Source: Lota lota
Taxonomy: Eukaryota; Chordata; Actinopteri; Gadiformes; Lotidae
Direction of reading: 5' to 3'
DNA length: 64,000 nucleotides
NCBI GenBank assembly: GCA_026745465.1
Contig: JACYXH010000273.1
Coordinates: 1,396,046-1,460,045, forward strand
A model generated the notes under the pieces. That model ran no database searches. It saw only the letters and a list, made by a program, of their open reading frames with translations, and had not been told where the DNA came from. Below, piece after piece: positions 53,701-59,700 of the stretch. The position numbers and the translations under genes are program-made. Numbering within the stretch: the first letter of the stretch is position 1; each line of letters begins with the position of its first letter.

Positions 53701-56700
53701 GGCCCGGGAGGGCCTCGATCGCCCTGCAGAAGAGATAGAGAGAGAGAGAGAGAGAGAGAGAGAGAGAGAGAGAGAGAGAGAGAGAGAGAGAGAGAGAGAG
53801 AGAGAGAGAGAGAGAGAGAGAGAGAGAGAGAGAGAGAGAGAGACTCACATCCGCCAAGAACAACTGCAACAGAAACCTAAAAGCAATGTTTTCCCTTTCT
53901 TTTTATATCAAGGCTCCTTCAGATTGTAAATAAAGGCAGTGAAAGAATGTTTGTTTTAAAGCTGGACCAAGTGTCAAGCTGAGGCTCATTAGAAATGAGG
54001 TTTTTGAATGGTAGACGTGTTGAACAGAATATGAATAGAAAAGGTGATACATTCTGTGTTAGTATGTATTGCTGTGAGCATATGTATATATATATATATA
54101 TGTATGTGTTAATACATCTGTGTTATATATGTATATTTATGCACGCTCATATATATGTATGCTCTTCTGAATTAAAATAATTGTATTAATAATACAGGAT
54201 TATTATAATAGTAAACATAATACGTACAGCAGTGCCTTCCTCTCCTGGGAATCCTGGATGACCTTTAGGTCCGGGAAAACCCTGAAAACACACAACACAC
54301 ACACGATGTGACCTCATCACCAATAACATCCTCAACTTGGACATCATGACCTCATCGCATTATGACACCATCACTTTTGAACTCATCACCTCATCACCTC
54401 ATTATGCAATCACCCTGTGACATCAGTAGCGGATGACCTCATCATTCCATTTTCTGATTAATTCTACGGCATCACAGCAGGGACATCAGAGGCCTTACTG
54501 GTCCTGAAGGTTGTCGTGGTCGTCACTAGGAACTAACTTCTGAATAGTCTCATTCATAGGTCTGTGTAGCTCTTACAGTTACAACCAGGAAAGTCTCTTT
54601 TTTGTATATTTAACGGTAATGCTGTCAGAATGTGTGAGGCGTTCAAACGCAATTTTTATCTGAGCACCAGCATCTTTTTCAATTGTTCCCAATGAGGAGA
54701 GAGAGCGCATGTGGCAGCATGCAGCCGCCTAGAGAAAACTTGCCATGTCCGTCTTTCCGGAGCTATCTGACATGTCTGACAGAAACTATCACAACAGAGG
54801 CAGTCTATGCTCATAGTGAAAAAACGATGTCAAACAAATAAATACAAAGATAGATGACAAAAAGCAAAGGGGCTTCTAGATCTCTGCCAGCGCTTTCTGC
54901 TAGAGAACAACGCTACGTGGACACGGACCCTAAGTCTCTCCCTCGCTTCTAGATCTCTGCCGGAGCATTCTGACATTCTTGAAAAGACGATTCACCTTTG
55001 ACCCCAAGTTTCCCCGCAAGCCTCGGCTTCCATCATGGCCCGAACATTTACACATGACACCACAGCACTCTCGGTCAGCCACGGTTTCCTGGACGAGAGA
55101 GAGGGGGAGAGGGAGAGAGGGAGAGAGGGAGAGAGGGAGAGAGGGAGAGAGAGAGAGGGAGAGAGAGAGAGAGAGAGAGTAGGGGGAGTAAGGGGAGAGA
55201 GTTAAAGAGAATAAGAGAGAGAGAGTGTAGGGGGGAGTAGGGGGAATAAGAGAGATAGTGACAGAGAGAGATGAGAAATTAATGTACTGTTGAAAGCAAG
55301 ACTAAGTCTAGTTTAGTTATTTTCACTATGGTTATTTATTTTACTTGATTTTAGTTTTGTTTAGTTAAAGGTAGACTTACGATCTGTTTAGTTTAGGTGG
55401 ATATACAATCTGTTCAGTATAGAGTTTATTTTAAGGAACTTTATTTTAGTAAAGTATATTTTAGTTTAAGGTGAGTTTATGATCTGTTTGGTATAGTTTA
55501 CTGTCATGGAAATATTAATCATAACTATACTATAAAATTGTTTCAACCTTGTTTATATAATTACTAGTCAATTGAAAAGGAATTTGTATACATTCTCCTT
55601 GGACCTAGAGATACCTCCCTTCCTCTCTCTAATTGAAAGGTGTTAAGATAGTTTGCATTTGCATTGCCACTGTAGCCACAAAGTCTGATACTGAGGCCAT
55701 GCCAATCGACTGACTTCTTTGTTGTGTAGATTCCTTTAACTGTCTTGCAGCCTTGCTTGCAGACTTGCAGACTTGTCCACTTCACCCATGGTGTATTGTA
55801 ATTTAACTTGGTCTCTCCCGCCATGGCTGATTTCAGCCATGGCCAATCCTAAACTCTCCATGATGGTCACTCCCCCTCACCTTTGTTTCCTTTGTACTCA
55901 CTGCCAACAATGTGAAAGTTTCCCTATAAGAATCATGTTCAGCCATTGTCCCATTGAATGTATCCTTGGTCGTTTTGCTGCCTGTATCTTCCCATGATCA
56001 TGCTCTGAAATTAAATCAAATATTTTGCTGTCAAGAAGAGTCCTAAAAAGAAGTTATTCTTCATCATTTACTTTAAGGTGGATGTATGATCTGTTTAGTA
56101 TAGTTTACTTTAGTTTAAGGTGGACTTACGATCTGTTTAGAATAGTTTAGTTTAAAGTGGACTTACGATCTGTTTAGTATAGTTTAGTTTAAAGCGGACT
56201 TACGCTCTGTTTGAATTAGTATAGTTTAGTTTAAGGTGAGTTTACGATCTGTTTAGTTAAGTATAGTTTAGTTTAAGGTAGACTTAATATCTGTTTAGTA
56301 TAGTTTAGTTTAAGGTGGACTTACGATCTGTTTAGTTTAGTATAAATTGGTTTAAGGTGGATTTACGATCTGTTTAGTATAGCTTAGTTTAAAGCGGACT
56401 TACGATCTGTTTGGATTAGTATAGTTTAGTTTAAGGTGAGTTTACGATATGTTTAGTTAAGTATAGTTTAGTTTAAGGTGGACTTACGACCTGTTTAGTA
56501 TAGCATAGTTTACTTTAAGGTAGACTTAATATCTGTTTAGTATAGTTTAGTTTAAGGTGGACTTACGATCTGTTTAGTTTAGTATAAATTGGTTTAAGGT
56601 GGATTTACGATCTGTTTAGTATAGTTTACTTTAGGGGGACTTACGTTCTAATTAGTATAGTTTAGTTTAAGGTGGACTTACGTTCTGTTTAGTATAGTTT

Positions 56701-59700
56701 AGTTTAAGGTGGACTTACGATCTGTTTAGTATAGCATAGTTTACTTTAAGGTAGACTTAATATCTGTTTAGTATAGTTTAGTTTAAGGTGGACTTACGAT
56801 CTGTTTAGTTTAGTTTAAGGTGGACTTACGATCTGTTTAGTGTAGTTTAGGTGGACTCACGATCTGTTGGAGCACGGTGCTGCCCACGCTCTGCATGCCC
56901 ACGCTGAGTGGGACCTTGTAGCCGAACCCTCGACCGAACTCCACCATCTGGATCTGGCTGGAGTCACGCACACCATCCAGCGCCACCGCCAGCAGAGCAT
57001 TCACCCCTGCAGAGAGACAGACAGGGAGAGAGAGGCAGAGAGAGAGAGAGAGAGAGAGAGAGAGAGAGAGAGAGAGAGACAGACAGGTAGAGGCAGACAG
57101 GAACAACAGGGAGAGAGATACAGACACAGTGAGAGAGAGAGAGAGAGAGAGAGAGAGAGAGAGAGAGAGAGAGAGAGAGAGAGAGAGAGAGAGAGAGAGA
57201 GAGGGGCAGACAGACAGGTAGAGGCAGACAGGAACGACAGGGAGAGAGATACAGACACAGTGAGAGAGAGAGAGAGAGAGAGAGAGAGAGAGAGAGAGAG
57301 AGAGAGAGAGAGAGAGAGAGAGAGAGAGAGAGAGAGAGAGAGAGAGAGAGAGAGGGGCAGACAGACAGGTAGAGGCAGACAGGAACGACAGGGAGAGAGA
57401 TACAGACACAGTGAGAGAGAGAGTGAAAGAGGGAGATACAGAGAAAGAGACAGATAGAGAGAGACAGACAGAGAGAGACAGACAGAAAGGCAAATATGTG
57501 CCGGAAAGTGCAAATAAAGAGTAGGGGGAGGAGAGTCAGGTATCATTGATTCCACCTCTATGTTTTAAAGATGAACTTGTGAGATATTTTGTAGAGTTTG
57601 GCGGTTGTAATATTCTGCAGTGGTATACAGAGTCCCATGTGCATCCTGACCTCACCAGACAGATGCAGCAGCTCAGACTGATGCTCCAGCTTCATAACAT
57701 CTTCATCCAGACCATCTGTGAAGACCACGAGCACCTGACACGCACGCACAAACACACACACACACAAACATTCAATACGCACAACTGTTGGCTAAAGTTA
57801 CACAGGCTAACCAGATGAATGTCTGAGAATAACTCAGTTTGTAGCACAGAGGGGAGAGCTACAATTACAACAACCCAACATCAACATCTTGCTGCATTGG
57901 GCATCAAAACCAGTACCTTTATAATCACCTTTAAATTATATATTGTTAATGAATGCCCAACAAGATATACCATTTCTTACTACCATTCATAACTTCATTA
58001 CATTTGTTCCCCATCGCTCCTGCTGTGCTGTACCTTGGCGCCGGCCTTGGACTCGTTCTGGAACTTCTCCTGGAAGGAGGTGAGCAGGGCCGTGTTGAAG
58101 AAGGTGGCCTCCGACATCTGCAGGGTCATGACCTTGTCCATGACCGCCTCGCTGAACTGATCAAAGTTGAAGTCGTACAGGATACCCCCGTTGTGGCCCA
58201 CCAGCCGGAAGGCGATGTTGGGTTTGATGGGCGTGTTCTGGACGCAGCAGAGGCCCTTCAGCGTGGCCACATAGTTGAGGATCTCCGGCAGGGCCGCCCG
58301 CAGCTTGGGGTACCCTGTAACCAGCAGCTCCGACCCAGCCCGCTGGGAAATGTCAAAACCAATGGCCACATCGATACTGCAGGCTGAGATAGAGAGAGGG
58401 AGAGAATGTCATTATACGGACCAGTTCCAGGAAACAGTTTGATTCCCGATCACCCATTTATTTATTTATTTATTTATTTATGTGTTTATCTTTGTGTATT
58501 ATGTATATGTTTAATATAATCTATATTGTGCTCTTCCTTCAAATGAGGGGGTCTTTTATGACAGAAAGTGTATATAAATGTACTCCTAAAAGACTCTTTA
58601 AAGACTTCCAAAAAAACATATTAAGTAGAAAAATAAACTGTGCCAGACAAACAGACAGACATACAGAAGGAAAAACAGATGAACAGATTAATCCTAACCA
58701 GATATGTCTTTTGGGGGCTTGGACTTGCAGATGGTGTCCACCACCTTCTGCTTGATCTTGGCCAGTGAGCCGAAGTCCTTGACGGTGAAGAGGCGATTGG
58801 GGTCGGCCGTGATCTTCAGCAGCTCCAGTCTGTGGACAGAGCCGATGCCGATGACAAAGATCTCGATGCCCATCCCCCGGAGCACCTCGGCCGCCTGCGC
58901 CACGTCATCCTCGGAGTCCCCGTCCGTCATCAGCACCAAGTTCTGGGAGATGCCGCTCTTGATGCGGCTCCCAGTTGATGTCTGGAAGTACTCCTTGATG
59001 AAGCGCAGCGCGTCTCCAATCTTGGTTCCCCCTCCCTCCTGCACCATGTTGAGGATGTGCTTGGTCACCTCCTCCGCCGTGTGGAACTGGTTCAGGTAGA
59101 ACTCCTTCTGCGGGGAGCTGCTGAACTGGGCCACACCCACACGCACCAGCTCTTCGCTGACCTTGAAGCCGCCGATTAGGTCGGTCATGAAGGTCTTCAT
59201 GGTGGTGTAGTCAACGTCGGGGATGCTGCCCGACTGGTCAATCAGCAGTACCAGGTCCGCTTTCTGCTTCTGACACACTTGCCAGGAGGAACATAGATGT
59301 CTGGGTAAATACTAATGTATCCACCTGATACTACTCAACAACACTACCATTCTCTCTACTATACTGTACTACTCTCTATACTCTCATAGTCTGCATTGTA
59401 TACTGTACTCTATGGTGCACTATACTACTCTATACTGTACTTTCAACACTATACTATACCATCTATAATATACTCTATAATAAATGTTGTACTACCCAAC
59501 ACTACTCGATACTATACTATACTAAACTCTATATTACAGTATTATATTCTGTACTCAGGACAGCTCTCTTGACTATATTACCCTCGATCATTTAGTGACG
59601 GACAGACAGACAGACAGTTACCAGGACTGGCGTCGTTGCAGAGGACATGGGTGATGTTTTTGTAGAGGGTCTCTAGGCCGTCAAAGTTGTCCACGTAGAA

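Follow-up and report, generated by a model that had tools for sequence, protein, structure and literature searches.

A minisatellite of donor-like units lies across an exon–intron junction of a collagen VI gene in Lota lota

A collagen VI gene of the fish Lota lota carries, in the intron that separates its last N-terminal vWA exon from the collagen triple helix, an array of 24 tandem units, the first of which straddles the exon edge and includes the authentic 5′ splice site. The gene is encoded on the minus strand at the right end of the window, the stretch of 64,000 nucleotides analysed here (contig JACYXH010000273.1 of assembly GCA_026745465.1, positions 1,396,046 to 1,460,045). An earlier note on this DNA had described an exon ending in ATC and followed by GTGAGT, with more than 20 repeats of the junction behind it, and this description holds. 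With at most three mismatches allowed, the unit pattern matched 21 times in the window, always on the minus strand and between 55370 and 56867, against 0.05 matches expected by chance and a maximum of 1 in 100 shuffles. The array is likely to be a minisatellite that was seeded at the exon edge and has been tolerated since exon definition favours the first donor.

The gene was recognized as a collagen VI gene from Pfam matches and translation. Pfam identified six single-exon N-terminal VWA domains and two C-terminal ones. A seventh N-terminal vWA domain, followed by translation, is split over exons 58384–58034, 57734–57656 and 57006–56861 and runs into exon 55088–54996; Pfam returned no match for the separate pieces of this domain, nor for the first helix exon. 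The helix is encoded by a series of Gly-X-Y exons, detected with a simple script, with lengths of, for example, 54, 63, 72 and 36 nt. An N-terminal vWA array, a Gly-X-Y helix and C-terminal vWA domains together make up the architecture of the alpha4/alpha5/alpha6-type chains. Excerpts of PMC6934817 describe five collagen VI genes in zebrafish, of which two are of alpha4 type and fall outside the alpha5/alpha6 branch; on account of that description the window gene can be labelled an alpha4-type chain, a label taken from this source and not from a tree of the window gene.

The exon that borders the array (57006–56861, minus strand, 146 nt) encodes the end of the seventh N-terminal vWA domain, in frame with its flanking exons. 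It ends in phase 0 with CTC CAA CAG ATC (Leu-Gln-Gln-Ile), its 3′ end reading CAACAGATC and the start of the intron GTGAGTCCACC. The true 5′ splice site is the hexamer GTGAGT (56860–56855, minus strand; +1 is 56860), which has a weak exonic side, ATC. The intron extends from 56860 to 55089 on the minus strand. The next exon (55088–54996, minus strand, 93 nt) was placed by translation; it contains the start of the triple helix (ETVADRECCGVMCKCSGHDGSRGLRGNLGSK) and is followed by more Gly-X-Y exons. Of the junction proposed earlier, from 56861 to 54996, the donor edge is retained and the acceptor is moved to 55088, 54996 being the far end of the next exon.

Within this intron, the unit ACAGATCGTAAGTCCACC and an A/T-rich spacer are repeated head to tail. 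A looser scan of 56920–55330 gave 24 unit starts, the exon edge being the first and the other 23 intronic. The core of the first unit (56867–56850) straddles the exon edge, and the main array (56868–56067, minus strand), with spacings of 31, 32, 36, 37 or 42 nt, thus begins with a unit that overlaps the last 7–8 nt of the exon. GT is kept in 18 of the 23 intronic units and the complete GTAAGT in 13 (57%), as expected from the earlier statement that most copies carry it. The first decoy, ATC/GTAAGT, is located at 56829–56824 (minus strand). The array also has the higher-order structure that had been proposed for it: 56823–56686 matches 56592–56455 at 132 of 138 positions (offset 231 bp), and 56634–56501 matches 56392–56259 at 128 of 134 (offset 242 bp). 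Unit 56294 is a hybrid composed of the head of unit 56536 and the tail of unit 56494, as a one-unit deletion within a copied block would give. An unrelated segment of ~555 bp that lacks units (56060–55506, minus strand) separates the last three units from the rest of the array. This segment is probably an insertion, because it has no match in the compared stretches of the other genomic copies described below; AGTAAA bounds it on both sides, an ambiguous mark given that AGTAAA also occurs within units. The distal remnant of the array (55505–55350, minus strand) contains the three remaining unit starts, at 55487, 55413 and 55387.

Each copy was scored as a donor with a vertebrate position weight matrix (PWM) and by pairing with the 5′ end of U1. 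In the PWM the true donor reaches 1.74 bits, the seventh lowest value among 18 scored donors of the gene (median 3.09), and the standard decoys reach 2.24 bits. The true donor has a U1 duplex energy of −5.8 kcal/mol and the standard decoys have one of −5.7 kcal/mol, so that the two do not differ. The idea that GTAAGT is the better match to U1 thus holds only marginally by PWM and makes no difference by duplex energy. Two AAC/GTAAGT decoys (56681–56676 and 56644–56639, minus strand) are clearly stronger than the true donor, with 4.34 bits each by PWM, and 12 of the 23 decoy units reach or exceed the 1.74 bits of that donor. By these simple models the decoys are near-equal to the true donor and do not fall far below it. 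Over its full length the intron contains 15 sites at least as strong as its own donor, compared with a mean of 3.9 and a maximum of 8 in 60 shuffles, and this is the highest count among the 17 introns measured. If normal mRNA is made, definition of the upstream exon must therefore override many equal or stronger donors, which was one of the two readings offered in the earlier note.

The weakness of the true donor can be explained by its last exonic codon. Because this codon is Ile in phase 0, no G could stand at −1 without a change of amino acid, which would leave the donor weak. A dense cluster of donor-like sites is not unique to this intron. The control intron 53377–52827 contains 14 such sites of at least 4.0 bits, of the GAG/GTGAGA type, in a purine-rich repeat; its own donor scores 6.47 bits and is matched by 1 site only. 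What is special to the array is that its decoys equal the intron's own donor and share its exon edge.

Translation beyond the exon gives VSPPKLH and then an in-frame TAA at intron positions +22 to +24 (56839–56837, minus strand), upstream of decoy 1 at +32. Because the TAA precedes decoy 1, use of any of the decoys would give the same protein, which ends in LQQIVSPPKLH and is cut before the triple helix. Downstream units accordingly cannot keep the reading frame. Many exon junctions lie downstream of the TAA in such a product, and transcripts with so early a stop are expected to undergo nonsense-mediated decay (NMD). The human MSTN case, in which excerpts of PMC3045353 report that a g-to-a change at +5 made splicing shift to a cryptic site that lies 108 bp downstream and produced a premature stop, may serve as a reminder of the weight carried by the G at +5.

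The genome assembly (575,287,041 bases in 867 contigs) was searched for further arrays; all comparisons that follow are between copies in this genome, not between species. A 25-base unit had 16 exact matches genome-wide, 6 of them in the window, 5 elsewhere on the same contig (C273), 2 on C422, 1 on C423 and 2 on C424. The five further matches on C273 (1528398–1528649) are on the opposite strand, ~76 kb from the window copy. A 188-nt query spanning the exon edge had 18 matches, in the same five places, and all 16 exact unit matches lie within copies of this exon–intron region, the C423 copy being garbled. Copies of the collagen VI region were thus found at C273:1452k (copy A, in the window), C273:1528k (B, inverted), C422:1791k (C) and C424:41k (D). 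At the start of contig C423 (1–330) the exon and array units are mixed up in garbled form, probably through misassembly, and this fifth copy (E) was excluded from all counts for its garbled exon. Origin from a dispersed repeat or transposon was considered and rejected, as no unit core was found outside these gene copies, a search by which diverged copies elsewhere could be missed; elsewhere in the window, a loose BLAST search gave just short spacer-like matches among the ten matches listed.

The exon (146 of 146 positions), the GTGAGT donor, the TAA at +22 and decoy 1 are identical in copies A–D, yet the arrays comprise 24, 18, 12 and 12 units, respectively, and it is this combination that gives the array its minisatellite character. 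Head-to-tail units in the 10–100 bp class with a copy number that varies between related loci agree with this classification. GTAAGT is present in 13 of 23 decoys in A, 7 of 17 in B and 4 of 11 in both C and D; the numbers of decoys at least as strong as the true donor are 12, 8, 4 and 4. The link between array and exon edge on which the earlier note had built is preserved in all these same-genome relatives. Other exons measured are ~87–100% identical between copies, with two short ones fully identical in one or two copies. Intron identity between A and the other copies, over alignments of at least 150 nt, is ~80–97%.

From the intron start onwards, the arrays of C and D show no difference for 509 nt, and these two copies may be alleles; C and D were treated as one array, and D was left out of the decoy count given below. 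In the first helix exon of D, two extra bases break the frame relative to A–C, so that D would be either a non-working copy or a misassembled one, depending on whether mutation or an assembly error is responsible. The array of D is as in C and its helix exon is as in B. Because D combines the two, there may be a breakpoint of conversion or recombination between copies close to the array.

Pooling of the intronic units of A (23), B (17) and C (11) gave 51 decoys aligned over 18 columns, unit 56651 included despite an indel. GT is kept in 36 of them and GTAAGT in 24. The two most variable of the 18 columns are G+1, altered in 15 of the 51 decoys, and G+5, altered in 11, and variant cells number 6.8 per site in the donor hexamer versus 3.8 in the other 12 columns. 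In an array maintained for U1 binding the hexamer should vary less than the other positions of the unit, and in these 51 decoys it does not. This suggests that the decoys are not maintained as U1 sites, without proving selection against them, and the proposal that the array modulates splicing or binds U1 finds no support in the three arrays. In the window units alone, with unit 56651 omitted for its indel, distinct variant letters per site were 1.0 in the hexamer versus 0.83 elsewhere, and the variability of the hexamer in this window-only set did not differ from that of random six-site sets. At the CpG formed by the C/G edge, C/A (which kills the decoy) occurs 9 times and T/G (which keeps it) 6 times among the 51 decoys, with no clear selection. 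Selection against decoys would be one way to read the excess loss at G+1 and G+5; this reading is confounded by CpG decay and by block copying, and column counts are not independent because the units were copied in blocks.

These observations are best accommodated by passive growth of the array from the exon edge. A stretch of ~31 bp, composed of the donor, the last 7–8 nt of the exon before it and the first intron bases after it, would have been tandemly duplicated in an alpha4-type collagen VI gene and would have expanded by unit and multi-unit duplication before the gene itself was copied. The decoy donors would then be passive copies. Exon definition across the 146-nt exon, aided by the long upstream pyrimidine tract and by putative exonic enhancers, would favour the first U1 site, and occasional use of a decoy would yield one common truncated, NMD-prone product. 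Seeding at the edge is supported by the fact that the unit begins within exon sequence, with the repeats running on from the edge. In DOK7, according to excerpts of PMC5585400, which of two adjacent 5′ sites is used depends on nearby protein binding, distance and strength; by analogy, exon-side factors may decide donor choice here. Repeats close to exon edges elsewhere in the collagen VI gene were counted in favour of seeding at an edge. Pyrimidine-rich simple repeats at 57011–57486, 55097–55188 and 53731–53843 precede the acceptors of exons 57006, 55088 and 53723 by 5, 9 and 8 nt, and 9 of 16 arrays, hand-picked from 114 tandem-array rows and given no statistical test, lie at most 10 nt from an exon edge.

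Several points weigh against passive growth from the edge. Intron positions +7 to +63, which include decoy 1, match at 57 of 57 positions when the window is compared with B, with C and with D. This is so for no other intron among the 18 tested, 15 of which could be aligned with all of B, C and D, although 55–57 identities in all three copies bring the introns after 53378, 51421 and 51087 close to that level. This identity could reflect constraint, or a gene-conversion tract that also took in the exon. The exon share of the unit is only 7–8 nt, which leaves the direction of origin an inference, and no array-free outgroup was found among the same-genome copies compared. A single-strand fold gives no help to the edge donor either, its unpaired fraction being 0.15 against 0.25–0.62 for the 13 GTAAGT decoys. 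Concealment of the decoys by RNA structure was accordingly rejected, the fold model pairing the true donor more than the decoys; being protein-free, such folding carries little weight.

The decoys could instead act as a dial of unproductive splicing, in which the fraction of transcripts using a decoy meets the same stop and is lost to NMD, so that the number of intact decoys sets the productive mRNA of each copy. Decoys that match or exceed the true donor, a stop upstream of the first of them, intact-decoy numbers that vary between the copies (12, 8, 4 and 4 in A–D) and an intron start unchanged from +1 to +63 in all four copies speak for such a dial, and excerpts of PMC10809524 indicate that many unannotated intronic splice-site matches are usable. 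However, decay is heaviest in columns G+1 and G+5, contrary to what a maintained dial needs; the TAA is an expected one, among many in the A/T-rich spacer; and copy D is perhaps not a working gene. We regard the dial as unlikely, and its heritable form, in which per-copy decoy number acts through one truncated NMD product and unit number sets the productive output, as more doubtful still. The same decay, falling on the bases most important for U1 pairing, tells against the array as a landing pad for U1, which when bound there would suppress premature polyadenylation at downstream intronic AATAAA signals (telescripting). Thirteen GTAAGT motifs occur within 1.5 kb, and AATAAA is present at 55445, 55430 and 55340, in or just after the distal remnant and ~620–730 nt past the main array. 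AATAAA is, however, to be expected in such A/T-rich sequence, and another intron has 14 donor-like sites of at least 4.0 bits without an exon-edge array, which leaves the landing pad very improbable. Multiplication of the array or of the gene copies by misassembly is the least probable of these accounts. It would explain the 509 identical nucleotides of C and D as possible alleles or split copies, the garbled exon at the start of C423 and the two extra bases in the helix exon of D, whereas A, B and C differ in unit number and in which units are mutated, and introns aligned over at least 150 nt differ by ~3–20% between A and the other copies.

The closest precedent is the donor-carrying minisatellite of human IFI6, whose units, like those described here, each have a splice donor. 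That minisatellite reportedly lies across the exon–intron junction, and its unit is said to be short (~12 nt) and in-frame, so that use of a downstream unit keeps the reading frame. The Lota lota array has the same structural definition, in that it includes the exon–intron junction and its units carry 5′ splice-site matches. Unlike in IFI6, the units are 31–42 nt and a stop precedes decoy 1, so that decoy use gives no full-length isoform, as read here from sequence. In IFI6, two downstream repeat units act as donors and three mRNA species result, as given in excerpts of PMC4526556. Splice sites are also multiplied by tandem repetition in UBC; in the sections of PMC10809524 concerned, these are AGGT sites with dual 5′ and 3′ function at the borders of coding repeats, whereas the repeats described here are ACAG-ATC-GT, non-coding and without an evident pyrimidine tract. 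Minisatellites of human segmental duplications (PMC2812944, in part), with units of ~30 bp on average, likewise differ in unit number between recent paralogues; there, exon and intron lengths change, with transcript support. Introns 1 and 3 of the Sparus aurata growth hormone gene resemble this one as fish introns with a variable minisatellite, and the passages of PMC3045353 on them say nothing of donors inside the units. Contraction of a repeat in LHX3 intron 5 provides a further case of an intronic tandem repeat that affects splicing, an effect attributed in excerpts of PMC3223203 to intron length, with no claim of donors in the repeat. Among top-ranked open-licence PMC papers, represented by excerpts, no second donor-carrying minisatellite or collagen case was found, and the portions of PMC2915984, PMC3045353, PMC3039753 and PMC12783039 concerned describe no donor-carrying minisatellite.

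Elsewhere in the window, Pfam identified a kinase and a VPS15-type (PIK3R4) domain at 20320–22909 on the plus strand. A 32-bp minisatellite of ~14 copies lies at 22916–23368 in this pik3r4-like gene region, also on the plus strand. It was considered as a second donor array, with AAGGTAACA units on the minus strand, and rejected: the pik3r4-like gene runs on the plus strand, so these units are not donors in it. A 39-bp minisatellite of 12.7 copies with 96% matches is present at 35087–35582, and a Tc1/Tc3-type transposase fragment with DDE_3 and HTH_Tnp_Tc3_2 matches at 3900–4669 on the minus strand.

The value of the array is that of a natural competition experiment. If splicing is faithful, one weak donor is chosen over a dozen equal or stronger copies that begin 31 nt away in a near-identical local context, which would isolate the role of position and exon definition from that of site strength, and with 23, 17 or 11 decoys per copy the genome already offers a natural dose series. 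If the decoys do act as a dial, the variation in unit number would be a ready dose series for the choice among competing 5′ splice sites bound by U1. With seeding at the junction as the preferred reading, the array is an example of how a minisatellite can arise at the border of an exon and persist within a gene family.

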